Assembly: GCF_016097415.1 (NCBI RefSeq)
Contig: NZ_JAEHGE010000002.1
Coordinates: 1 to 64,000 of the forward strand
Source: a sulfur-oxidizing endosymbiont of Gigantopelta aegis
GTDB taxonomy: Bacteria > Pseudomonadota > Gammaproteobacteria > GRL18
DNA length: 64,000 nucleotides
Reading direction: 5' to 3'
A model generated the notes under the pieces. The model did not search any database. It worked only from the letters and a program-made list of their open reading frames with translations, and had not been told where the DNA came from. The number at the start of each line of letters is the position of its first letter. Within the stretch, counting starts at the first letter, position 1. A program made the position numbers and the translations under genes. Shown here one piece after another: positions 4,909 to 51,312 of this stretch.

Positions 4909-5880
4909 TTAAGTGCCCATTGTGTCGGATTGTATGTCAGTTGCTGTGTTAGCTTTATTGGTCTGTTTTTCTTTTTTTCCAACTAATTGTAAAAATAATT
5001 GTTCTAAACGATTACTTTTATTGCGCATGCTGAGTACTTCGATATTATTTTTATTCAACAAACTAAAGAGTAAATTAACACCTTCACTTTTCTTTATCTC
5101 GACTTCCAGGGTCATGCTGTCTTTGAGGTGAGTGGAGTAATCACCCAAAATCGGTGCTTTATCAATGGCATTTTTTAAGCTTAAAATTAGACACTCACTG
5201 GCAGATTCTGATAAGAGTTCAGACATCGCACAGTTCTTGATGATTTTTCCCTGATCAATAATTGCGATATTTTTGCATAAATATTCGGCTTCTTCCAAGT
5301 AATGCGTGGTTAGAATGATGGTCGTACCCTGGGCATTGAGGCCTTGTAAAAAATCCCACATTGTGCGGCGTATTTCAATATCGACACCGGCAGTTGGTTC
5401 ATCAAGAATTAAAATTTGCGGATTATGCATTAAGGCTCGGGCTATCATTAAACGTCGTTTCATGCCGCCAGAAAGCTCTCGTGCCATGGCTTTACGTTTA
5501 TCCCATAGGTCTAGTTGTTTTAAGTGTTTTTCAGCACGTTTGAATGCCTCGGGACGATTTACTCCATAATATCCAGCATGATTGACCAGAATTTCTTCTA
5601 CGGGTTCAAAGACATTAAAATTAAATTCCTGCGGTACGACACCCAGGTATTGCTTGGCATTGTGTGGGGACTGAGTTAAGTCATTGCCCTGTATTTTTAC
5701 CCATCCGGAAGTTTTGTTTATCAATGAGCAAATAATACCAATGACGGTTGATTTCCCAGCACCATTAGGCCCCAGCAGAGCAAAAAAGTCGCCCTGCTTG
5801 ATTTGCAGGTTAATACCTTTTAATGCCTCAAAACCGTTGCTATATGTTTTTCTTAGATTGGTTATTTCTAGTGCATTCAT
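4909..5880 (-). CDS. ABC transporter ATP-binding protein (YadG-like)
   Basis: A 323-residue ATPase of an ABC-2 exporter. Walker A GPNGAGKST (about residues 37-45), Q-loop VVPQEFNFN, signature LSGGMKRR, Walker B ILILDEPTAG and the H-loop TTHYLEEAE are all intact. The C-terminal ~90 residues form the DrrA-type regulatory extension with a final lysine-rich, polar tail. It is the first gene of a minus-strand unit with the permease 3 bases downstream and DedA next. The 248-base gap to the divergent GGDEF/EAL pseudogene contains the presumed promoter. Confidence 0.92.
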   Translation of the reverse strand: MNALEITNLRKTYSNGFEALKGINLQIKQGDFFALLGPNGAGKSTVIGIICSLINKTSGWVKIQGNDLTQSPHNAKQYLGVVPQEFNFNVFEPVEEILVNHAGYYGVNRPEAFKRAEKHLKQLDLWDKRKAMARELSGGMKRRLMIARALMHNPQILILDEPTAGVDIEIRRTMWDFLQGLNAQGTTIILTTHYLEEAEYLCKNIAIIDQGKIIKNCAMSELLSESASECLILSLKNAIDKAPILGDYSTHLKDSMTLEVEIKKSEGVNLLFSLLNKNNIEVLSMRNKSNRLEQLFLQLVGKKEKQTNKANTATDIQSDTMGT

Positions 5881-6849
5881 TTTTTGTCTTTGGGTTATTA
5901 TTAGTGATCGATCTATCTAAAATGAGGTTGGACTGGTATTTTTTCAAGCTAAGTTATTAAGCAAAAATCAGGCCTTAGTCATAATTTTAAAAAATAAATC
6001 GTTATTCTAGGATTGTAACTCATTACTTTCTTGCTAATTAGCTATTTATTAACTATTTTTAATTCATACTATACCCGTGATTTAATAAGCCCGTTTTTTC
6101 TCATGATTAAGGCAAAGAAGTTCAAATAATGACTTCAATTGAACAAACCCCGAAGAAACTTTTATTTTTAAGCCTGAAATGGAAAGTGGTGTTAGGGATT
6201 AGTCTCGTCTTAATTATTGTTAATTTTGCAGTCACTATGGTGACTTATAAGCAAATTCTCTTACAATTTGACCAGAATCGTATTCAAACCCAGCAAACTT
6301 ATGAAAGAGAGTTTGAAGGTTTAGTTAAAAATAGCTTTGATAGGATGAGACAATTGTCCTATCTGATTCCGTTATTAAAAATCACTACAAATGTGCCAAG
6401 CAAATCGTTCCAGTATCAATTACAAGAAATTATCAAAGAACATATTTCTCTATTACAAATTGAATATGGGCTGAACAGTCTTTACTATTTTCAAGAAACG
6501 GAACAGGCGCTAGTGACTTGGAATGGTGTCCAATTATCAGATGCTGTGAAAAAAATTCTGATGTGTCAACACTTTTCCGGACAGTTTTCTAAATATTTTT
6601 TTGGCTGTTTCAAGTGATTTTTGTCATTTTGTATTTCCTATCATTTTAGTTTCTCATGTTAACTTTAAACAGATGAAGAGAAAGGGCTTTGCCCTCTGGA
6701 ACGATAGAGCCGTTCCATTCACCCAAGGTATTTTCACAACGGTAATGATCCTGTTACAATATCTTCACGGCACAGGCTGAGGAGCCGATGGCCGTCAACG
6801 GTAATGGGCGGCATTTATGTCGCCTTTTACCCCTCTTCAATCAATCGAT

Positions 6850-7713
6850 TTAAGCTATTTCCTGCTGTATTTCATAATCGACTGGTGACAAATAATCATT
6901 AGCCGAATGAAGTCGCTCCCGATTATAAAATACCTCAATATATTCAAATATTGCCTGCTTTGCTTCTACTCTGGTTTTGAATCGACAATGTGCGTCAATT
7001 CAGTTTTCAAACTATGAAAGAAGCTCTCTGATACAGCATTGTCCCAGCAATTTCCTTTGCGGCTCATAGACTGAATTATGTTATGATCCGACAATATTTT
7101 TCTATGACTATCAGATGCATATTGGCTACCTCGGTCAGTATGCCAAAGCAATCCATCCATTGGTTTACGCTTCCATATGGCCATCAGTAAAGCATCATTG
7201 ACTAGCTTGGCTTTCATTCGCTCATCCATCGACCAGCCAACAATTTGCCTAGAGAATAAGTCAATGACAACCGCTAAATATAACCAGCCTTCCTTGGTGG
7301 CAATATAGGTAATATCACCCACATAGTAGCGATCAGGTTGAGAGACAGTAAACTCTCTTTCCAGTAAATTTGGAGATATACGCTTATTATGCTTGGAATT
7401 AGTCGTCGCTTTAAAGCGTCTCTTCGTTTTACAAAACAAACCGGCTTTTTTCATTAATCGACCAATTCTCCGGCGGCTTATATGAACGCCTTTTTCAGCC
7501 AGTTTTCTTTTTAAGACGACGGGTTCCATAAGTCTTGCGACTGTCTTCAAACAGTTTTTTTAGCTGCTCAGTAAGCGCTTCATTTTCTTTCTCTCTATCC
7601 GTTTTAGGAGAGCTAACCCAATCATAATAGCAACTACGGGAAACATCCATAAAACGGCACAGAATCGTTACCGGGTAATCTTTAGCCTGATCAGTTATCC
7701 ATGCGTACTTCAC
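6850..7713 (-). pseudogene. IS3-family orfB transposase, copy 1, frameshifted
   Basis: Encodes the rve-type DDE catalytic core: [31 protein letters not shown] and the [16 protein letters not shown] block. Frame is lost near 7510 (extra T relative to other copies in a T run) and near 6995, where one G is missing so that the tail reads HIVDSKPE and stops early. This copy alone keeps the seven-base A run (QLKKLFED) that is six bases long in the other three copies. Confidence 0.85.
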
Positions 7714-8012
7714 AAAGTTTCCCTTGCAAAGTACGCTGTGGCCTTTTTAATAAATCACGCTCCTGAATCACTTTTGCCAATTCTTTTTTCAGACGTTTTA
7801 CTTCATCATAAATGTGTTCATCACTTCTATTGGCTACCGTCTTCACCGGTTTGGAATATTTACTGATCCAGGTATGTAGAGTATTTACATTAACACCTAG
7901 CTCCCTGGCAGTCTGAGAAAACGGGTTGATCCGTCTCATTAGCTAATTTGACAGCTGATTCTTTAAATTCTGATGTATAGCTTTTATTCGGTTTTTTTGT
8001 TTGATCATTCAT
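7691..8012 (-). pseudogene. IS3-family orfA (helix-turn-helix), copy 1, frameshifted
   Basis: Equivalent to the intact orfA at 43619-43939. An added base in the segment coding for TDQPVSQTA (around 7918-7925) breaks the frame between the N-terminal SEFKESAVKLANE part and the ELGVNVNTLHTWISKY helix-turn-helix part. The 3' end contains the run of five A residues at the usual frameshift position. Confidence 0.8.
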
Positions 8013-9887
8013 TTTAGGTCACACTTTTTATCTTTTAGTTGTTTTAAGTTGTGTGTCCGGTTAAGTATAGCCACATTAATTTGCCAGTATTTCTGATGCG
8101 GATATTGGCCTAGTTTCGCATATAAAAGACTTTAATAAAGCGGTGGATGAATCCATTATTCTAAAAAATGGAGTGCAATGCTGCTAGCGGTGAGTCATGC
8201 AGAACAGCAGAGTGTATTGATGGAAAATTTTTCCCAACAATACAGTCTAACTCAGTCAATTAATCATTCGCTACAAATTACTTGGCTTAATAAAACCTAT
8301 GAGGTGCAATTATTTCCACTCAATGATATGGGAAGCAAAGAAAACACCATGACTTTGGTGATCAGTGATATTACCCAAGAATTAGAAGCAATTGATATCA
8401 TGACTTTAAAAACATTTAATACGGGCTTATTAGGCTTATTGATATCAGAGATATTATTGTTTGCTATTTTGTGGCTGCCTATGCGAAAAATACTCACACA
8501 TAGTGAAAGTACTGCCCTTATTTGCTAAAAGTTCTTATGCAGATATTCGAACACAATTAAACTTTAAACATAATAAATTATTGTTTGATGATGAGATAGG
8601 CGTGCTATCCAGTTCAGTGATTGATTTATCTGAGCAATTGGAGGGCTTGCAAACGCAAGTTGAGCAAAAACACAGGGGCTGGTATTACGTTCTAATGAGT
8701 TGGCAAAAGAGAAGGAGTTTATTTCAGGCCTATTGGAAACAACTCAGGCTATTATTCTTACTCAGGACAAAGATGGAAAAATAAAAAGGCTTAATTCTAA
8801 AGGTATGATTCTAATTGCCTATGAATCAGATGATATTATTGATACTTCTTTTGATGATATCCTGGTTAAGAATGACTTAAAACGTGAGGTTGTTGAAAAA
8901 CTCAATGAAATTCGTTGTGGTGAACGTGCTCATTTTCATCATGAAGCTGAAATATATAGCCCTAAAGCTTCCCGTTGCAGTGTGTCATGGTATCACTCAT
9001 TACTTTCTATTTATGGTGATGACGGAACGGTTATGTTGTCAGTTGGACTGGATATCACTGAGCGTAAAGTGGCACAGGAGCAGTTGGAATGGATTGCAGA
9101 TCATGACCCCTTAACCGGATTGGTCAATCGCCGTCGTTTTCAAATAGATATGGAACGTATATTATCTATTACTTGTCAATATGAAAAAAGTGGTGCTTTA
9201 TTGTATTTCGATGTCGATCATTTTAAATATTTGAATGATAGTCAAGGGCATCAAGCCGGCGATAAAATGCTCAAGCTTATTTCTGAGAGGCTTGAATCGA
9301 TTATTAAACGACCTGACTTAATTGCTCGTTTAGGGGTGATGAGTTTGCAATTGTCATTGAAGATGCGGATGAGGCTGTGGCAATAAATGTTGCCCAAAGA
9401 ATTATTGATAATGTACGTTCTATAGAGACCGGTATCTTAGGAGGGACGCATAAGATTTCAGTGAGTATAGGTATTGTTATTTTCCCGGATGAAGGCTTCA
9501 ATATTCCAGATCTAATGGCTAATGCCGATTTGGCTATGTATCAGGCAAAAGATAAAAAACGTGGGAGTTACCACATTTTTTCTTCTAGTGATAAAGGTCG
9601 TGAGCATGCTAATCAATTGATGCAAAGAAAAGAGCGTATCGAGCGAGCCATTGCAGAAGATCGCTTTACACTCTATTTTCAACCTATTTTGAATATAAAA
9701 ACAGGTGAAATAAAACGTTACGAAACATTGATTCGGATGTTGGAAAAAGATGGTACAGTACAAGCCCCTGACTTTTTTATTCCAGAAGCAGAGCAATTGG
9801 GCATTATTGATGAAATTGATCAATTAGTGATGAGGAAAGCCATAAAAGCATTGGGTGGTTTCGTTGAGGAAGGTCTGGATATTAGTT

Positions 9888-40061: not shown

Positions 40062-41409
40062 TGATGTGTCAACACTTTTCCGGACAGTTTTCTAAATATT
40101 TTTTGGCTGTTTCAAGTGATTTTTGTCATTTTGTATTTCCTATCATTTTAGTTTCTCATGTTAACTTTAAACAGATGAAGAGAAAGGGCTTTGCCCTCTG
40201 GAACGATAGAGCCGTTCCATTCACCCAAGGTATTTTCACAACGGTAATGATCCTGTTACAATATCTTCACGGCACAGGCTGAGGAGCCGATGGCCGTCAA
40301 CGGTAATGGGCGGCATTTATGTCGCCTTTTACCCCTCTTCAATCAATCGATTTAAGCTATTTCCTGCTGTATTTCATAATCGACTGGTGACAAATAATCA
40401 TTAGCCGAATGAAGTCGCTCCCGATTATAAAATACCTCAATATATTCAAATATTGCCTGCTTTGCTTCTACTCTGGTTTTGAATCGACAATGGTGCGTCA
40501 ATTCAGTTTTCAAACTATGAAAGAAGCTCTCTGATACAGCATTGTCCCAGCAATTTCCTTTGCGGCTCATAGACTGAATTATGTTATGATCCGACAATAT
40601 TTTTCTATGACTATCAGAGGCATATTGGCTACCTCGGTCAGTATGCCAAAGCAATCCATCCATTGGTTTACGCTTCCATATGGCCATCAGTAAAGCATCA
40701 TTGACTAGCTTGGCTTTCATTCGCTCATCCATCGACCAGCCAACAATTTGCCTAGAGAATAAGTCAATGACAACCGCTAAATATAACCAGCCTTCCTTGG
40801 TGGCAATATAGGTAATATCACCCACATAGTAGCGATCAGGTTGAGAGACAGTAAACTCTCTTTCCAGTAAATTTGGAGATATACGCTTATTATGCTTGGA
40901 ATTAGTCGTCGCTTTAAAGCGTCTCTTCGTTTTACAAAACAAACCGGCTTTTTTCATTAATCGACCAATTCTCCGGCGGCTTATATGAACGCCTTTTTCA
41001 GCCAGTTTTCTTTTAAGACGACGGGTTCCATAAGTCTTGCGACTGTCTTCAAACAGTTTTTTAGCTGCTCAGTAAGCGCTTCATTTTCTTTCTCTCTATC
41101 CGTTTTAGGAGAGCTAACCCAATCATAATAGCAACTACGGAAACATCCATAAAACGGCACAGAATCGTTACCGGGTAATCTTTAGCCTGATCAGTTATCC
41201 ATGCGTACTTCACAAAGTTTCCCTTGCAAAGTACGCTGTGGCCTTTTTAATAAATCACGCTCCTGAATCACTTTTGCCAATTCTTTTTTCAGACGTTTTA
41301 CTTCATCATAAATGTGTTCATCACTTCTATTGGCTACCGTCTTCACCGGTTTGGAATATTTACTGATCCAGGTATGTAGAGTATTTACATTAACACCTAA
41401 GCCACATTA
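40062..41409 (-). mobile_element. IS3-family element, copy 2, internally deleted, with 3-bp target duplication
   Basis: Same element as copy 1. Left end TGATGTGTCAACAC at 40062; the right end keeps only the terminal GCCACATTA (41401-41409), because the orfA 5' half and right non-coding end (between ACACCTA and AGCCACATTA) are deleted. TAT direct repeats flank it (40059-40061, 41410-41412) and removal restores the helicase reading frame, confirming the boundaries and a 3-bp duplication for this family. Confidence 0.93.
40352..41213 (-). pseudogene. IS3-family orfB transposase, copy 2, frameshifted
   Basis: C-terminal 201 residues ([17 protein letters not shown] to YEIQQEIA, with all DDE motifs) read through, but a shortened A run (six instead of seven) near 41055-41062 and one missing G near 41140 separate it from its N-terminal part KYAWITDQAKDYPV. 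No intact product. Confidence 0.85.
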
Positions 41410-41873
41410 TATTGATAATGGAAAAATTACCCACTCGGAGTTTTTAGGCTATAAAAATTGGCAAACCTATGTAGATGTAAAATCAAAAGAAAATTTTTTA
41501 ATGGAACGTATTAATGACATGTTAATAAAAGGCTACAGACAAGAACATCTTAATATAACCTTAGAAAAAGCAAAACCTGCTAATAAAAAGCATATTATTT
41601 CTATAATGAAACACTCCAAAGGTATGGAATGTGAACAAATATATGTGCTGCCTAATAATAGAAAACAACAAATGCTCAATGGTGGAACAGGCTTTAGTAT
41701 TCAGGAATCAAATGAACTTTATATTGCTTTAACGCGTTCAAGCCATAAAATATTCATGCCGAATCTTTAATGATGGTATTTTTTGCCCGCATTTAATGCT
41801 ACTGGATAAATAGGTTCTAGACCTAATTTTTCATGGCTCATTAATTTTATTTTCATTAATTATCGTTTAAGCC

Positions 41874-43172
<1,299 letters not shown>

Positions 43173-43552
43173 ATCAACACAACCACAACAAGAAGAATAG
43201 AGGCAATAATAACTATAATGATCGTTAAGCTGATTATTTTAGTCCGTGCTTTTCTCATTGCTTCTGCTGAGTCGGAGACTGCAGTTTCGGCAATGGACTG
43301 CTGTACATCTTTCATTCTTTGTAGATCGTCAATGACGTACTTATTTAAAGCCTGAGCCTTGAGAATATTTGCTCTGGCAGTTTTTTTTGTCACCCTCTCG
43401 AATAGCATTAATAACATTATCCAAAAAATTCTGAGATTCTTTTAATTGGATACGTTGTTTGGCCAGGTGTTCTTTCTGACTTTCTCTTAAGGACATTTCA
43501 GTGAGTTTTTCTCGGGCAACAAGAAATTGGCTCGCTTGTAAGCTATAGTTTT
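43173..43552 (-). pseudogene. Fragment of a membrane receptor (chemoreceptor- or sensor-like)
   Basis: A minus-strand coding piece lying between two inverted IS3 copies. It reads a long helical segment (SLRESQKEHLAKQRIQLKES, NVINAIREG), a frame break in an A8 run near 43382-43389, then ARANILKAQALNKYVIDDL, MKDVQQSIAETAVSDSAEAM and a TM (KIISLTIIIVIIASILLVVVVLI). This helix-helix-TM layout is that of a four-helix-bundle ligand domain from a chemoreceptor or sensor kinase. Both the N-terminus and the signalling domain are lost, so the class cannot be fixed. Confidence 0.65.
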
Positions 43553-43618
43553 TAATGTGGCTATACTTAACCGGACACACAACTTAAAACAACTAAAAGA
43601 TAAAAAGTGTGACCTAAA

Positions 43619-43916
43619 ATGAATGATCAAACAAAAAAACCGAATAAAAGCTATACATCAGAATTTAAAGAATCAGCTGTCAAATTAGCTAATGAGACGG
43701 ATCAACCTGTTTCTCAGACTGCCAGGGAGCTAGGTGTTAATGTAAATACTCTACATACCTGGATCAGTAAATATTCCAAACCGGTGAAGACGGTAGCCAA
43801 TAGAAGTGATGAACACATTTATGATGAAGTAAAACGTCTGAAAAAAGAATTGGCAAAAGTGATTCAGGAGCGTGATTTATTAAAAAGGCCACAGCGTACT
43901 TTGCAAGGGAAACTTT

Positions 43917-43939
<23 letters not shown>
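43619..43939 (+). CDS. IS3-family orfA, helix-turn-helix protein (copy 4)
   Basis: 106 residues, the only complete orfA in the window. SEFKESAVKLANETDQPVSQTARELGVNVNTLHTWISKY is the transposase_8-type helix-turn-helix and is followed by a leucine-zipper-like stretch (VKRLKKELAKVIQERDLLK). Family members shift frame at an A6G run to make the OrfAB fusion; here the run is A5, so the normal end KKATAYFARETL is only reached in the -1 frame and orfA reads on to MDN. All four copies share this A5. Confidence 0.85.
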
Positions 43940-44779
<840 letters not shown>

Positions 44780-45230
44780 ATCGATTGATTGAAGAGGGGT
44801 AAAAGGCGACATAAATGCCGCCCATTACCGTTGACGGCCATCGGCTCCTCAGCCTGTGCCGTGAAGATATTGTAACAGGATCATTACCGTTGTGAAAATA
44901 CCTTGGGTGAATGGAACGGCTCTATCGTTCCAGAGGGCAAAGCCCTTTCTCTTCATCTGTTTAAAGTTAACATGAGAAACTAAAATGATAGGAAATACAA
45001 AATGACAAAAATCACTTGAAACAGCCAAAAATAGAAAACTGTCCGGAAAAGTGTTGACACATCACAAGCTATTACTATCAACCTAAAAAGCCTCTGCAAA
45101 ATAAAGATTTAACATTAATGAATTTGATTGATGAGTTGTACATAAAACATCCATTCTATGGCAGTCGTCAAATTCGTAATGCATTAAGATTGAAATGTTA
45201 TAAAATTAATCGTAAAAAGTTCAACGGCTT

Positions 45231-45842
45231 ATGCGGATCATGGGATTGGTTTCAGTGGCACCAAAACCCAATACCAGCAAGCCTTGCAAAGTAAATAACC
45301 TCTATCCATATTTGCTCAAAGGAATTGATATTAATAGGAATAACCAGGTTTGGTGCACAGATATCACGTATTTACGGATGCCACATGGATTTGTCTACCT
45401 AAGTGCTGTTATGGACTGGAGTAGCCGTTTTGTGCTGTCCTGGGAAGTGTCAACCAGCATGGAAGAAAGCTTTTGTATCAGTAGTCTGGAAACAGCACTG
45501 CGACGATATGGAAAGCCAGAAATCTTCAATACGGATCAAGGTGCTCAATATACTAGCAGAGCATTTACAGGTGTTCTAAAGGCCAATGATATAAAAATCA
45601 GCATGGACGGCAAAGGCAGAGCAATGGATAACATTATGATTGAACGACTCTGGCGAAGTGTAAAATATGAGGAAATTTACCTCAAGGATTACCAAAGTAT
45701 TGATGAGCTAAAGAGCTCATTAAAGGAATATTTTGAGTTTTACAACCATGAACGACCACACAGTACACACGGTGGAAAAACGCCTGCAGAGATCTATGGC
45801 GTGATGAAAGAAGTTGTTCCAGACTTAAAACGGGCAGCATGA
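45231..45842 (+). pseudogene. IS3-family transposase orfB C-terminal part (second type)
   Basis: 203 open codons covering the rve integrase core with catalytic D (CTDITY), D (NTDQGAQY) and E (MIERLWRSVK). The N-terminal HTH_21 part upstream (45070-45215) is in another frame and the true N-terminus is gone. Confidence 0.85.
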
Positions 45843-45873
45843 TGAGAGGATAATCAACTTTACTGGCAACCGC

Positions 45874-45964
45874 CTTATCCACATATCCACAGGCCAAGCC
45901 AGTAGCCCTGAGATATATCGCAAGCGTCTCTGGACTACTGGCAGACCTGTGGATATGTGGATAA
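45874..45964. repeat. Near-perfect long inverted repeat with DnaA-box-like ends
   Basis: Arms CTTATCCACATATCCACAGG...GCCAGTAG and CTACTGGC...CCTGTGGATATGTGGATAAG are complementary over about 28 bases each with a small bulge, loop about 29 bases. TTATCCACA occurs at both outer ends (45875-45883, and inverted at 45956-45964). It lies within the non-coding 3' end of the IS3-type remnant. Confidence 0.8.
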
Positions 45965-46095
45965 GACTAATACTATAAATAACCAACAGAATTATATCTT
46001 AATATTTGAGAAAGCTGTCTTGACAATGGGGTCCACTGTACTACATCCTAATGTTTAAATCTATTTTTGGAAATTTTAAGTTGTGTGAGTCTAGA

Positions 46096-46686
46096 CTAAA
46101 TGGGTAAACGAACTTCAGTGGTTACAGAAATGACATCTTGTGTTTTGGATGATTTAAATTGCCAAGCCAGTTCTGCACTATAATCATTAATCATACTGAG
46201 GAAGCCAAGCCCTGAAGTCATATTATCATCTAATGCCTTTGCTTCTAATTGCTCAAGATACATTTCCATGGGATCACTTTGACTTAATTTATGAACAAAA
46301 CTTTTGTAGTTCTGTACGGATGAAATAGCCACTGAATTCGATTCGGTCAAAATAATTTGATTGTCTTCAAAAATTAAGCTGATACTTATTAAACAATTAT
46401 CACCCTTATCACTGTATTTCATGGCATTTTCTAATAATTCATTTGCCACATAAGACACTGCGGACTTTATTTCAGCCTGACGTGCAATTGTTTCGGGATT
46501 ATTCTCATTCTTTGGGAAGAAGGTGGTGGCATAATCACCCATAAAATCAGCAGACAAGCCATTATTTCTCCACCTTTCTTTCAAGGGGATGGAGTTGGCC
46601 AGAAATCCAAGCTGTAAATTCTCTCCTGTTGATAATTTGTTTTCAATATCTGAAAAACAACCAATTGTTTCATCTATTTCTATCAT
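46096..46686 (-). CDS. HATPase-like switch protein of the slr1658 / DUF6272 type
   Basis: A 196-residue cytoplasmic protein with a histidine-kinase-type ATPase N-box (SYVANELLENAMKYSDKG, residues ~80-98) and a C-terminal SGLGFLSMINDY element, but no dimerisation or receiver domain. This pattern fits the small anti-sigma-like/SiaB-type proteins that phosphorylate STAS or related partners. It lies 11 bases after the GGDEF gene on the same strand, and a STAS gene lies divergently upstream, supporting a partner-switching role (inference). Intact. Confidence 0.7.
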   Translation of the reverse strand: MIEIDETIGCFSDIENKLSTGENLQLGFLANSIPLKERWRNNGLSADFMGDYATTFFPKNENNPETIARQAEIKSAVSYVANELLENAMKYSDKGDNCLISISLIFEDNQIILTESNSVAISSVQNYKSFVHKLSQSDPMEMYLEQLEAKALDDNMTSGLGFLSMINDYSAELAWQFKSSKTQDVISVTTEVRLPI

Positions 46687-46697
46687 TTATGGGGGTC

Positions 46698-47714
46698 CTA
46701 GTTTTTATCTGTTCCAATTTGATTTCTACCCATTGCTTTGGCCATGTAAAGATTTTTATCGGCCTTGTCAAATAAGGTCTGTGCTTTGTCATGTGGTTTG
46801 GGAATGGTTGAAGCGACCCCAATACTGACAGTGACATAACCACAATCTGTTTTGGGGTGTACAATGGCCAAATCTTCGATTGTTTGTCGAATGTGTTCTG
46901 CCATTATAAATGCATTGGTTAAATCAATAAGAGGTAAAACAATGACGAATTCTTCACCACCATAGCGGGCTACAAATTCACCTGTTCTTCTGGGGATATT
47001 GGATAGCGCTGCTGATATATCTTTTAAACATTTGTCGCCGGATGCATGGCCAAAAGCATCATTAAAATGTTTAAAGTGATCAATGTCTAAAACCAGTAAA
47101 GAAAGTGGTGTTTTAGAGCGGGTATTACGTTTCCACTCAGTTTCGAATGTTTCATCAAAATAACGCCGATTCCATATCTCGGTCAGCCCATCCGTATAGG
47201 CCATTGTCTCTGCAGATGAGAGCTGCTCTTCCATCTGAGAATTTATTTCATCGCCATGACTTGCAATGGTCTCAACTAAAAGCTCTAAATCACTTTTTTG
47301 AGAATTTAAATTTAAAACCATTGATTGTAATTTTACTTCTATTTCCTGTCGCTCACATATCTCACTATTGAGTTGCTTGTTGATGTCATAAAACTGTTCT
47401 TCAATTGCATCACCATGCTCAATAGCGGTTTTTAATGCTATTTCAAGGTCATTATTTTGTTGATTAATCGTTATAAGCAGTTGACGTAAGGCTTCTTCTG
47501 CCTGACGGCGGTCTTCTACCTCTGATTTTAGTTGATCGTTGACGAGAAAAAGCTGTTCTTCGACAATATCACCGTGCTCAATGGCTGTGCTCAGTGCTAT
47601 TTCCAGATCCAGTTTTTGTCTATCCAGTAAATCAACGGCTTTTTTCATGGGTTTAACTTCAATTAAATCATTTTTTTTAGTCGTAGCTGGAGTATTTATT
47701 TCACTTTTTGTCAT
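46698..47714 (-). CDS. Diguanylate cyclase with repeated N-terminal coiled coil
   Basis: 338 residues. The C-terminal GGDEF domain (from about residue 170) has YTDGLTEIWNRRYFDE, VLDIDHFKHFNDAFGHASGDKCL and the active site RYGGEEFVIVLP; no clear RxxD inhibitory site is seen. The N-terminal ~165 residues lack TM segments and contain three related heptad-rich units (DLEIALSTAIEHGDIVEEQL, DLEIALKTAIEHGDAIEEQF, DLELLVETIASHGDEINSQM), spaced about 47 residues, probably a long signalling coiled coil. First gene of a two-gene unit with the HATPase-like protein. Intact. Confidence 0.9.
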   Translation of the reverse strand: MTKSEINTPATTKKNDLIEVKPMKKAVDLLDRQKLDLEIALSTAIEHGDIVEEQLFLVNDQLKSEVEDRRQAEEALRQLLITINQQNNDLEIALKTAIEHGDAIEEQFYDINKQLNSEICERQEIEVKLQSMVLNLNSQKSDLELLVETIASHGDEINSQMEEQLSSAETMAYTDGLTEIWNRRYFDETFETEWKRNTRSKTPLSLLVLDIDHFKHFNDAFGHASGDKCLKDISAALSNIPRRTGEFVARYGGEEFVIVLPLIDLTNAFIMAEHIRQTIEDLAIVHPKTDCGYVTVSIGVASTIPKPHDKAQTLFDKADKNLYMAKAMGRNQIGTDKN

Positions 47715-48531
47715 TATTGTTTTAATAAAAAAAGGTATCCATTTTAAATAAGCTTTTTATCGTATCCATAATCATGCTCAAAATATCATCCTGTTATGTG
47801 ATAACTATAGTAAATGAATGAAATATTTCAATCATTTAATTGAAAATATGAAGCTTGATCTTTTTAATGGGCGATGTTATTAGCTGAATAATCTCTATTA
47901 GAAGTGAGAAAAAGTAATTTTTTTATGGTATGTCTCTAACTATCAATTGCTTATAACTTAAAGCTGTAATAGTTCTGTAATCATGTGATTTTTTGTTAGT
48001 TATAAACGGCTTTTAGGGTGCTTTTTTCCACAGAAATAATATTTTTATTCAACTTTATTCATTTTTTGTGCTTCAGAAGCTAAAATCCAATGAATTAGCG
48101 GTTTTACATAAAGTTGTTTCTTTAAATGAAAGATAAGTTGTTGTAAATAAGGCTTTATTTCTATTGGTTAAAAAGTGAGCAGTTTATGCTATTTGTAATG
48201 ACAGTAATGTTTCAAGAAAGATATTAACGCTTTATGCACAGACTTATCCACAGATTTTGTGGATAAATATTAGAGTGGTTTTTTAATCTTGAAATTAGCT
48301 GTAGTTAGATTAAAAAACTCATGAAACTCGCTGTTTTCTAAAGATTAAAGGAATTTTACATTTTTATGACCATTGCTATTGATTCAAGTGGTGGAAAAAA
48401 TAAGGAAATCATTATTTTTATTTTGTAATTGATGATTTTTTTTTAATTTCGTTCTATAGTAGGCTTATCTACAGCCAAAATGATTGGCATTTTATTTTAA
48501 AATTTTTAGCCTTATCGGAGAGCCTATACTG
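47715..48531. other. Long AT-rich divergent intergenic region
   Basis: 817 bases without a convincing gene between the cyclase (minus) and the STAS gene (plus). It must hold promoters for both. Very AT-rich with several T/A runs, and contains a cluster of DnaA-box-like nonamers at 48232-48266, plus weaker one-mismatch boxes such as TTATCTACA at about 48466. Confidence 0.7.
48232..48266. promoter_or_regulatory. Cluster of three DnaA-box-like nonamers
   Basis: TTATGCACA (48232-48240), TTATCCACA (48244-48252) and inverted TTATCCACA (48258-48266): all fit the TTATNCACA consensus, within 35 bases. The last two form a palindrome with a 5-base spacer. Confidence 0.65.
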
Positions 48532-48834
48532 ATGTCAATTCTTACCAATCTATCAGATAGTGGAAATGCATTGACCATTAAAATTATGGGAAAATTTCAA
48601 TTTCCCTTGGCATCTGAATTTCGTCGTGCCTATACCGATATTGATCCGGTACAAGAATATGTACTTGATCTTAAAGACTCAGATTATCTTGACTCTTCTG
48701 CTTTAGGAATGATTATAGCCTTATGGGAATTTGTTGAACGCAATAAAGAGCGCATTAAAATTGTCAATGCGAATGAAGAAGTGATTCAAATCCTTGAAAG
48801 TGCAAATTTTGATCAGCTTGTCACCCTGCCATAG
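48532..48834 (+). CDS. STAS-domain anti-sigma-factor-antagonist-like protein
   Basis: 100 residues from ATG 48532, which has GGAGAG ten bases upstream; an in-frame ATG at 48484 lacks a ribosome site. The fold pattern matches SpoIIAA-type STAS domains: N-terminal strands NALTIKIMGKFQF, then DIDPVQEYVLDLKDSDYLDSSALGMII with the serine pair at the usual phosphorylation site (DSSALG), and IKIVNANEEVIQILESANF. Opposite orientation to the HATPase-like kinase and cyclase genes, with which it probably forms a switch. Confidence 0.88.
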   Translation: MSILTNLSDSGNALTIKIMGKFQFPLASEFRRAYTDIDPVQEYVLDLKDSDYLDSSALGMIIALWEFVERNKERIKIVNANEEVIQILESANFDQLVTLP

Positions 48835-48961
48835 CTCCATTTCCAAGTAGCACGGGTATAAGAGTTAGAACTGTTATCATCCTGTCATTTTTATGTCATA
48901 AATAAGCATATCTGCTATGCTGTTTATGATTTGTTACTCGTCAATATAAGTTGTTCAAAAC

Positions 48962-49921
48962 ATGCTTGAAACCCTTTCTCTTCTTAATAAAATTTCTTTT
49001 CCTGCCATTAAGCGAAAAAGCATTGATATCCTGCAAATTAACTTAGGTTATCGTTGTAATCAGCAATGCCTGCATTGTCATGTCAATGCAGGCCCTAAGC
49101 GCAAAGAAGAAATGTCTCATGAAGTACTGATGCAGATTTTAGATTTTGTTGAAAACAACCAAATCAAGACGGTTGATTTAACCGGTGGGGCACCAGAAAT
49201 GCACCCGGAATATTCCTTTATTATTGCCAGTCTGCACGCATTGGGTGTGAAGATAATTGATCGTTGCAACCTCACGATCTTGACTGAACCAGGCTATGAA
49301 CACCTGATGCAGGAACTAGCGGACAAGCAAGTGGAAATTGTTGCCTCTTTACCTTGTTATTTAGAAGAAAATGTTAATAAACAACGTGGTAATGGTGTTT
49401 TTGAAAGTAGTATCGAGGCTTTAAAAGGTCTAAATCAACTGGGTTATGGACAGCCGGATAGCGCCTTGATATTGAATCTTGTCTACAACCCTCAGGGGGC
49501 ATCACTTGCACCTGATCAGGCGCAATTGGAACAAGACTATAAATTATTTTTAGCCAATGAGTTTGACATACAATTCAATCAATTGTTTACCATTACCAAT
49601 GTGCCCGTGAAACGCTTTGGTAGTATGCTTTTATCCAAACAAGCGTTTCATCCCTATATGGAACTCTTACAAAGTGCTTATCAACCCGCTAATCTTGATG
49701 GGCTGATGTGTCGTTATCATCTCAGTATTGATTGGCAGGGCTTTATTTATGACTGTGATTTTAATCAGATGCTGGATTTACCCTTAATAAATGACGACAG
49801 TAAACTACACATTAGCTCGGTGTCTCTCGATGATGTGAAGCAGCGTGACATTATTGTAGCTGGGCATTGTTATGCCTGCACTGCGGGTCAGGGTAGTAGT
49901 TGTGGTGGCGCTTTAAGCTAG
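48962..49921 (+). CDS. arsS: ArsS-type radical SAM protein (arsenosugar biosynthesis family)
   Basis: 319 residues. The radical SAM cluster motif is CNQQCLHCHVNAG (C-x3-C-x2-C) near residue 34, followed by LTGGAPEMHPEY (SAM-binding GGE-like loop) and the C-terminal DUF3641-type half with TITNVPVKRFGS, DGLMCRYHLSIDWQGFIYDCDFNQML and CYACTAGQGSSCGG, cysteines that could hold another cluster. Family members were linked to arsenosugar formation downstream of ArsM, but no arsM is in the window. Followed by two glycosyltransferase genes that usually accompany it. Intact. Confidence 0.88.
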   Translation: MLETLSLLNKISFPAIKRKSIDILQINLGYRCNQQCLHCHVNAGPKRKEEMSHEVLMQILDFVENNQIKTVDLTGGAPEMHPEYSFIIASLHALGVKIIDRCNLTILTEPGYEHLMQELADKQVEIVASLPCYLEENVNKQRGNGVFESSIEALKGLNQLGYGQPDSALILNLVYNPQGASLAPDQAQLEQDYKLFLANEFDIQFNQLFTITNVPVKRFGSMLLSKQAFHPYMELLQSAYQPANLDGLMCRYHLSIDWQGFIYDCDFNQMLDLPLINDDSKLHISSVSLDDVKQRDIIVAGHCYACTAGQGSSCGGALS

Positions 49922-49969
49922 CTTTTTGTTTAAACTAGGGCTTTGTATCAGCAGACACGCAGGCATTCT

Positions 49970-50677
49970 ATGTGGCAAAAAATTTCCTTTATCATCCCTG
50001 TTTTGAATGAAGCGCATGCTATTGTTGCCTTTTTGCAGCCTTTGCAAGTGTTGCGTGAGCAGGGTCATGAGGTAGTTTTAGTGGATGGTCAGAGTGAGGA
50101 TAACACCCGTGAACTGGCGCGTCCCTATGTGGATCGCATGATGAGCACAGAGAAAGGCAGGGCAAGGCAGCAGATTTTGGGGGCAAAAATGGCCGCCGGT
50201 CAGATATTTTGCTTTCTTCATGCTGATACGCTATTACCCGCCAATGCCGTTCAAATTGTTTTGCAGACTCTGAGCCAGGTTCTACAGCCCACTCAAATTG
50301 ATTTCTGGGGACGTTTTAACGTCCACCTCTCTGGTAGCCATTGGTTTTTCCGTATTATTGAAGCTATGATGAACTGGCGCTCCTGTCTGACGGGAATAGC
50401 GACCGGTGATCAGGCAATTTTTGTGTCAAAATCACTGTACCGCAAAGTAGATGGTATCCCTCTCATTGATATCATGGAAGACATTGAGTTCAGTCAACGC
50501 TTGCGTAAACAACAGGCCATTATTTGCATTAAAGCCCCGGTTATTACCTCATCACGACGATGGGAAGAAAAGGGCATCATGAAAACAGTTTTATTGATGT
50601 GGCAAATGAGGCTACAGTATTTTTTCGGCGTAAAACCGGAGCAATTACTAAAAAAATATTATCCGGGGCGTTCCTAA
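49970..50677 (+). CDS. TIGR04283-type glycosyltransferase
   Basis: A family 2 glycosyltransferase of 235 residues from ATG 49970; a TTG nine codons earlier is in frame but unlikely. GT-A motifs: ISFIIPVLNEAHAI at the N-terminus, EVVLVDGQSEDNT, FLHADTLLP (DxD-like metal site) and GDQAIFVSK with DIMEDIEFSQRLRK. C-terminal amphipathic region VLLMWQMRLQYFFGV. Families of this type sit next to arsS. The stop overlaps the next start by one base (TAATG). Confidence 0.87.
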   Translation: MWQKISFIIPVLNEAHAIVAFLQPLQVLREQGHEVVLVDGQSEDNTRELARPYVDRMMSTEKGRARQQILGAKMAAGQIFCFLHADTLLPANAVQIVLQTLSQVLQPTQIDFWGRFNVHLSGSHWFFRIIEAMMNWRSCLTGIATGDQAIFVSKSLYRKVDGIPLIDIMEDIEFSQRLRKQQAIICIKAPVITSSRRWEEKGIMKTVLLMWQMRLQYFFGVKPEQLLKKYYPGRS

Positions 50678-51312
50678 TGTTGACTCAGCCTGATGCGCTT
50701 ATCATTATTTTTGCTCGTGAACCGGTGCTTGGGCAGGTTAAGACGCGTCTGATACCCGCCCTAGGCGCAGATCGCGCCACCGAACTCTATAAGCGTCTTT
50801 TAGACTATACAATAAACAATGTTATTTCAGCTTCATTGTCACCTATGCGCCTGTGCATCACTCCTGAGAGTGAGCAACAATATTTTATGCAGATGAAGCA
50901 TGCTCAACACTTTGAATTGACGGTGCAGGAGGGGACTGATTTAGGGTTAAGAATGTTTAATGCGCTGGCTACTGCGTTGGCGCAATATTCTAAGGTTATT
51001 CTCATTGGGACAGATTGTCCTTCGATTGAGCAATCTTTATTGCAGCAGGCAATTGATGCTCTTGAGCATAATGACATGGTTTTTTCACCAGCCTCTGATG
51101 GTGGGTATGTGTTGATTGGTGCAATACGCGTTGTGAAAGAAGTTTTTATCGACATTGATTGGGGAACCGATAAGGTGATGCAACAGTCGAGACTTGCGCT
51201 AGCAGGTAGCGACTTGAGTTGGCAAGAATTATCAGTGCAACATGATGTTGATATTAAAGCTGATTTGAAGTATCTTAGCTTACATGATGAATTTAAAGAC
51301 TTTATTGCTTAG
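50677..51312 (+). CDS. TIGR04282 / DUF2064 glycosyltransferase-like protein
   Basis: 211 residues from ATG 50677, coupled to the previous gene by TAATG; a longer in-frame extension to 50560 would overlap the upstream gene and is rejected. Nucleotidyl/glycosyltransferase-A fold motifs: IIIFAREPVLGQVKTRLIPALG, VILIGTDCPSIEQSLLQQAI and VFSPASDGGYVLIGAI. Typical third member of the arsS-associated set. Its 3' end overlaps the convergent lipoprotein gene by 11 bases. Confidence 0.87.
   Translation: MLTQPDALIIIFAREPVLGQVKTRLIPALGADRATELYKRLLDYTINNVISASLSPMRLCITPESEQQYFMQMKHAQHFELTVQEGTDLGLRMFNALATALAQYSKVILIGTDCPSIEQSLLQQAIDALEHNDMVFSPASDGGYVLIGAIRVVKEVFIDIDWGTDKVMQQSRLALAGSDLSWQELSVQHDVDIKADLKYLSLHDEFKDFIA

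Follow-up and report, generated by a model that had tools for sequence, protein, structure and literature searches.

An slr1658-family kinase and a diguanylate cyclase in a Gigantopelta aegis endosymbiont: probable survivors of a SiaABCD-like operon broken by insertion sequences

Is a kinase-like gene lying beside a diguanylate cyclase gene, with a divergent STAS gene close by, a compact partner switch that works without a phosphatase, or the remainder of a larger operon? The question is raised by the first 64,000 nucleotides of contig NZ_JAEHGE010000002.1 (assembly GCF_016097415.1), from a sulfur-oxidizing endosymbiont of Gigantopelta aegis; this whole stretch is called the window here. An earlier note on the window, made from its letters, had proposed the first possibility and compared the locus with SiaABCD-type control of cyclic diguanylate (c-di-GMP). 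SiaABCD is the well-studied example in which a small phosphoprotein switches a cyclase. We found in the window a SiaABCD-like module, made of slr1658/slr1659 parts, in broken form. That half of such an operon survives here, disrupted by insertion sequences (IS) and to be understood by analogy with SiaABCD, is a reading that we hold with good confidence.

The three open reading frames (ORFs) lie where the earlier note had placed them, as the ORF list confirmed, and the HATPase-like protein and the cyclase do form one unit, head to tail on the minus strand with 11 bases between them. The first (46096..46686, 196 residues) is intact and is a putative Ser/Thr kinase of the slr1658 family, with 237.2 bits against NF052618 (cut-off 200) and 215.2 bits against NF047703 (cut-off 100). 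An ordinary SiaB was ruled out as its identity by the score of 25.3 bits against the SiaB family NF038262, whose cut-off is 85. The kinase keeps 35 of the 36 columns that are invariant across 14 relatives, departing at one, and the kinase of the nearest relative is 64% identical to it. In the tree it clustered with the kinases of loci L032 and L033 (support 100/99), and a broader cyclase-bearing group, including the hybrid-kinase locus L034, was recovered with support 83/88. The second gene (46698..47714) encodes a diguanylate cyclase of 338 residues with a long helical N-terminal stalk and a GGDEF domain (PF00990, 1.4e-49). This domain is complete, since positions 1-161 of 161 were aligned; it carries RYGGEEF, with the GGEEF motif, and the I-site position reads RTGE. 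Against the SiaD equivalog NF038266 the cyclase gave 143.6 bits, under the cut-off of 290.

The genes that should accompany this pair were deduced from 33 other slr1658 loci, 21 of them from the species collection, 6 from 186 relatives, and 6 from 398 Pseudomonadota. L061 and L032 are one contig and entered the count a single time. Gene content was called by six-frame profiles and ORF calling was mechanical. The slr1659 gene directly follows slr1658 in all 33, the window being the sole exception, and the six slr1659 proteins scanned with NCBIfam all exceeded the cut-off of NF047705. A SpoIIE phosphatase gene is present in 18 of the loci and a plain PP2C in one further (L059); no phosphatase was found in the remaining 14, all cyanobacterial. 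The GGDEF gene adjoins slr1658 in five (L032, L033, L035, L053, and L140), and the order in these relatives is cyclase, slr1658 kinase, slr1659 phosphoprotein, and SpoIIE phosphatase. The operon is complete in L032 (genome G010), L033, and L053 (G018); L140 (G235) has a similar order with a gap ahead of the phosphatase, and L035 ends with its contig. In L033 the cyclase and the kinase are fused into one protein of 550 residues, with slr1659 and SpoIIE next to it, and the phosphatase of L032 begins with a four-helix-bundle sensor. The neighbourhood survey suggested in the earlier note brought together kinase and cyclase in 5 of the 33 loci, one as a fusion.

No slr1659 gene was found in the window, and none scored above the cut-off in the 4.9-Mb genome, where SiaC was the only match (22 bits). 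The place where it was expected, 45065..46095, is taken up by a truncated second IS3-family element and a short stretch past the kinase stop codon; the ORF of this element (45231-45842) matched only the C-terminal half of NF033516, with 205.5 bits. Further along there is an IS3-family element of about 1.5 kb (43552..45067, plus strand), which shares 98.95% identity with another copy, 6556-8079, and then a remnant of a SpoIIE phosphatase gene (43165..43554, minus strand), which is frameshifted and retains only the N-terminal sensor part, the catalytic domain being absent. By tblastn the remnant aligned with residues 91-149 (54% identity) and 144-192 (69%) of the L032 phosphatase in two frames, with a joint E value of 1.5e-25; the matched stretch (minus strand, about 43241-43547) lies between two copies of one IS3-family element. 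The second of these copies (41873..43164, minus strand), with its 5′ end cut and an internal deletion, terminates the remnant. In all, the window holds four copies of this element (6556-8079, 40062-41399, 41873-43164, and 43552-45067), 97-99.6% identical, and three of them lie within about 5 kb.

The fragment has the orientation and order of the phosphatase in the operon of the relatives, and its presence rules out that a phosphatase never existed at the locus. The order of cyclase, kinase, a missing slr1659, and the phosphatase fragment matches that of the relatives, and the loss came about through insertion and deletion: two of the four genes were destroyed by IS3-family elements, slr1659 entirely and the phosphatase gene down to a fragment. 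The statement that the window has no phosphatase stands in that no intact gene was found, and falls in that a frameshifted SpoIIE fragment lies outside the interval that the earlier note had considered.

Two observations concern mobile DNA nearby and elsewhere in the genome. At 45874-45965, just past the truncated IS ORF, there is a perfect 20-nucleotide inverted repeat (CTTATCCACATATCCACAGG) with a 52-nucleotide spacer. The same genome also carries a canonical SiaABCD-type operon (L060, 6445-14841; G000:C1, about 2942400-2950800) with SiaD, SiaC, SiaB, and a SiaA-like protein. Its SiaA-like multidomain gene is split within the SpoIIE domain by a transposase gene (8930-9853) which we take to be IS1595-like, so that in both SiaABCD-like switches of this genome the phosphatase is broken by mobile DNA. 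Another phosphatase of the genome, at C1:3062983, is presumably HsbR-like.

It remains to place the STAS gene, which the earlier note counted as part of the switch. A three-gene switch of kinase, cyclase, and divergent STAS, operating without a phosphatase, is in our view very improbable. Part of the claim stood: the protein belongs to PF01740 (40.4 bits, cut-off 22.6), it bears DSSALG, and its gene (48532..48834, plus strand) is divergent from the pair at a distance of about 770 bases. Translation probably begins with the ATG at 48532, giving 100 residues, rather than at the ORF start at 48484, since the copies in relatives begin at that ATG and are 100 residues long. The distance to the cyclase is short, and control of cyclases by STAS proteins has been described for HsbA-HsbD (in the text consulted of PMC5085249) and for BgrV-BgrR (as cited in PMC8457831). 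Moreover, another GGDEF protein of 652-654 residues (GGDEF-EAL in the two scanned) is encoded upstream of the same STAS gene in G004, G005, and G008, which weakly favours the three-gene switch.

The context of the STAS gene in other genomes points elsewhere. The protein was searched against 57 genomes, its own included; 29 matched and 16 matching loci were retrieved, of which the 15 with identity of at least 72% were counted, leaving out L131 (G018, STAS 40% identical). In all 15 the STAS gene heads a cluster in which an arsS-type radical SAM gene follows it, 71-78% identical to the arsS of the window, and neither slr1658 nor this cyclase lies beside it. In 14 of these 15 genomes slr1658 is absent above the cut-off, and in the exception, G010, it is on other contigs. 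Upstream of STAS the DNA similarity to the relatives reaches only about position 48082, short of the cyclase. In addition, the STAS protein is just 22% identical to slr1659 where aligned and lacks its C-terminal PWQ.KSL.NLQRL stretch. By arsS-cluster context, upstream divergence, and low identity to slr1659, the ORF at 48484 was rejected as the switch partner. The co-occurrence of the three families on which the earlier proposal depended therefore breaks down at the STAS gene, whose close copies never adjoin slr1658 or the cyclase in the 15 relatives. The supposed version of the switch with a genuine STAS protein and no phosphatase is an artefact of IS damage beside an unrelated STAS gene, which lies outside the module at the head of a STAS-arsS-glycosyltransferase cluster. 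In the window this cluster, STAS, the arsS radical SAM gene, and two more genes, spans 48532-51312, and it is kept in 15 of 15 relatives, in some of them cut by contig ends.

The likeness to SiaABCD went further than the earlier note had claimed. In Pseudomonas aeruginosa the four roles are those of SiaA (phosphatase), SiaB (kinase), SiaC (phosphoprotein), and SiaD (cyclase) (PMC8457831, PMC7647112); according to the former, SiaC activates SiaD via two conserved stalk motifs, and phosphorylation by SiaB blocks this binding. A structure model of the window kinase was built from 15 sequences, with a predicted local distance difference test (pLDDT) of 87.5. The best Foldseek E value was that of SpoIIAB (1th8, 1.3e-5), SiaB (6kko) giving template modelling (TM) scores of 0.59/0.67. 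By Z score, SiaB (6kko_A) ranked first at 13.7, with a root-mean-square deviation of 3.1 over 156 aligned residues, tied within 1 with the anti-sigma factor 8ih8_C (13.6). The predicted fold of the kinase is SiaB-like. For slr1659, the protein of L032 was modelled from 18 sequences (pLDDT 93.5), and the eight top matches in the PDB were SiaC chains without exception, among them that of the SiaC-SiaD complex 7e6g, other STAS proteins coming next. The sequence identity between slr1659 and SiaC is 14-18%, so what they have in common is the fold and not family membership: among the six slr1659 proteins of relatives compared with the SiaC family PF09345, one reached 18.7 bits (cut-off 24.5) and the rest gave no match at E 0.01. 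A phmmer search of PDB sequences gave no convincing match, with best E values of 0.33 for slr1658 and 0.71 for slr1659. In the alignment the slr1659 motif LNSSG lines up with LNSSS in the SiaC of this genome. In P. aeruginosa SiaC, the residues N67-T68-S69 contain the phosphorylated threonine and contact the SiaD stalk (text consulted of PMC8457831), and the two motifs may correspond.

The two systems agree in that one operon supplies the four roles, in that kinase and phosphoprotein have predicted folds like those of SiaB and SiaC, and in that the helical stalk of the cyclase has repeated motifs. They differ in that the parts tested here score under the Sia family cut-offs, in the gene order (cyclase, kinase, phosphoprotein, phosphatase), and in the stalk repeat, which is another one with a spacing of 53 residues. 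They also differ in that the window has lost both partners: it lacks slr1659 directly downstream of slr1658, as the slr1658-slr1659 module has it, and in place of the SpoIIE-type phosphatase gene of the SiaABCD operon it has the frameshifted fragment devoid of the catalytic domain. By analogy with SiaABCD, in the intact operon the slr1658 kinase would phosphorylate slr1659 within its conserved NSS(G) motif, and the SpoIIE phosphatase would strip the phosphate upon a signal. Without the phosphate, slr1659 would then dock at the DLE...EHGD repeats in the stalk of the cyclase and turn c-di-GMP synthesis on. Our analysis establishes the anatomy, the families, the folds, the loss, and the repeats; phosphorylation, docking, and the way in which control runs are carried over from SiaABCD.

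The stalk of the window cyclase has three copies of the DLE-x8-HGD repeat, with the histidine at residues 47, 100, and 153, all encoded on the minus strand. Repeat 1 (DLEIALSTAIEHGD..., 47508..47627) and repeat 2 (DLEIALKTAIEHGD..., 47349..47468) were matched with E values of 1.3e-18 and 3.1e-21, respectively, by A3, a 40-position profile built from 13 repeat segments of module members; repeat 3 (DLELLVETIASHGD..., 47232..47291) is degenerate and was recognized by regular expression and spacing. All three keep the 53-residue spacing, which recurs exactly in three other cyclases (L032, L033, and L185) and in three hybrid histidine kinases (L034, L187, and L188), so that it spans Gamma- and Alphaproteobacteria and Cyanobacteria. 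Adenylate cyclases beside slr1658/slr1659 (L058, 14257-15627; L059, 4801-6123) carry an EH(A/N)D repeat spaced by 25 residues. Single copies were found by regular expression in the SpoIIE proteins of L054 and L056 and in L053, L140, and L180. The domains of L034, L054, L056, and L058 came from the domain scan; the labels of L059, L187, and L188 were read off the sequences.

We regard the repeat as a candidate docking site for slr1659. It could also be a coiled-coil spacer common by descent and unrelated to slr1659, which we consider rather unlikely. Signalling helices like this stalk repeat are common, and the motifs by which SiaD binds SiaC gave no match to it. Against a mere spacer, the same repeat precedes four catalytic types (GGDEF, adenylate cyclase, hybrid histidine kinase, and SpoIIE), and over 40 proteobacterial genomes A3 matched in 7 of the 13 with slr1658 and in none of the 27 without it. 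The matches in these genomes numbered 14, and each shared a contig with slr1658 or an slr1658-like gene lying within about 15 kb. Over the 398 Pseudomonadota, matches occurred in two of the seven genomes with slr1658, one being the genome of the window itself, and in none of 391 without (p 2.7e-4). Among the 20 genomes of the other species-collection loci 19 matched, 17 of them at E ≤1e-9; two of those 17 had supplied training rows, and the figure is no test of co-occurrence because the cyanobacteria searched all bear slr1658. Cyanobacterial diguanylate cyclases of about 290 residues with one or two stalk repeats (L180-L183, L185, and L186) are encoded away from slr1658.

Several points weigh against the broken operon with its docking repeat. 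The training rows of A3 came from five of the seven matching proteobacterial genomes, and in the held-out genomes matches were obtained in two of eight with slr1658 (G016 and G235) compared with 0 of 27 without (p 0.047), so that proteobacterial support outside the training genomes is thin. No repeat match was found in 6 of the 13 slr1658-bearing proteobacterial genomes, and in the cyanobacteria searched, all slr1658-bearing, there are repeat proteins, hybrid kinases and cyclases, outside slr1658 loci. Neither the repeat nor the stalk gave a detectable match to the SiaD stalk or to solved structures, and PDB sequences yielded chance coiled coils only. Finally, neither the cyclase ORF nor that of the kinase is interrupted, and the two could therefore still have a function.

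That the surviving pair does work, with the HATPase acting directly on the cyclase or with SiaC borrowed from the canonical SiaABCD operon, seems to us unlikely. Besides the intact ORFs and the 35 conserved kinase columns out of 36, the fusion in L033 and the SiaC gene in L060 speak for it. However, slr1659 stands next to slr1658 in each of the 33 other loci, the L033 fusion retains both slr1659 and the phosphatase, and the identity of SiaC with slr1659 is about 20%. The intact ORFs may merely reflect a recent loss, the IS copies being about 99% identical. Returning to the broken operon, the surviving cyclase is probably idle or unregulated, because its cognate activator and phosphatase are gone.

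Among other known systems, Slr1658/Slr1659 of Synechocystis agrees in protein family: the window kinase scores above the cut-offs of NF052618 and NF047703, and the partner in relatives above that of NF047705. It differs in that the retrieved cyanobacterial loci have no cyclase beside slr1658, the repeat-bearing hybrid kinases and cyclases being elsewhere in the genome. A Synechocystis slr1658 mutant has a reported iron-recovery phenotype without a settled mechanism, as cited in PMC7555055. The HptB-HsbR-HsbA-HsbD system of P. aeruginosa shares the control of a cyclase by a STAS-type phosphoprotein, but has kinase and phosphatase in one protein (HsbR) and a phosphoprotein of another STAS family; HsbA binds more strongly as its phospho-mimic, which is the reverse of what SiaC does (text consulted of PMC5085249). 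In that system the STAS partner is linked to the kinase/phosphatase and the cyclase, whereas all 15 relatives have their copy of the window STAS gene in the arsS cluster. The anti-sigma kinases SpoIIAB/RsbW share the predicted fold (1th8) and differ in output, since no sigma factor gene was seen in the module and the adjoining output is a cyclase.

Some modules of relatives contain further genes. Proteins of about 385-390 residues with a weak slr1659-like match adjoin SpoIIE-slr1658-slr1659 in L054 (6997-8166), L057 (2260-3417), and L058 (11691-12854); that of L054 has a methyltransferase domain (Pfam), and weak slr1659-like ORFs of a similar kind occur in L141-L145. A second, highly diverged slr1658-like gene was noted in L055 (7575-8090), L058 (12877-13365), and L056 (about 4913-5479), those of L055 and L058 having no Pfam match.

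The protein families are already named in NCBIfam, and the Synechocystis slr1658 mutant is already in print (as cited in PMC7555055). In the literature on slr1658, slr1659, DUF6272, and partner-switching cyclases we found no account of the operon or the repeat, subscription journals lying largely outside that search. Taken more widely, slr1658, slr1659, and SpoIIE may form a partner switch that serves Proteobacteria and Cyanobacteria as a general plug-in, and its phosphoprotein would read a dedicated helical docking repeat, DLE...EH(G/A)D, placed before at least four catalytic types; we advance this tentatively, with slightly more doubt than belief. The window also gives a caution, namely that IS damage can disguise a broken operon as a new compact one. 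If the plug-in reading is true, one switch could set c-di-GMP, cyclic AMP (cAMP), and histidine-kinase outputs jointly, and the unexplained Slr1658 of Synechocystis would gain a molecular target. The switch would then predict which cyanobacterial cyclases and histidine kinases answer to Slr1658, and a second lineage, made of slr1658/slr1659 and having an operon and a candidate docking repeat of its own, would show this mode of c-di-GMP control to be wider than Pseudomonas.

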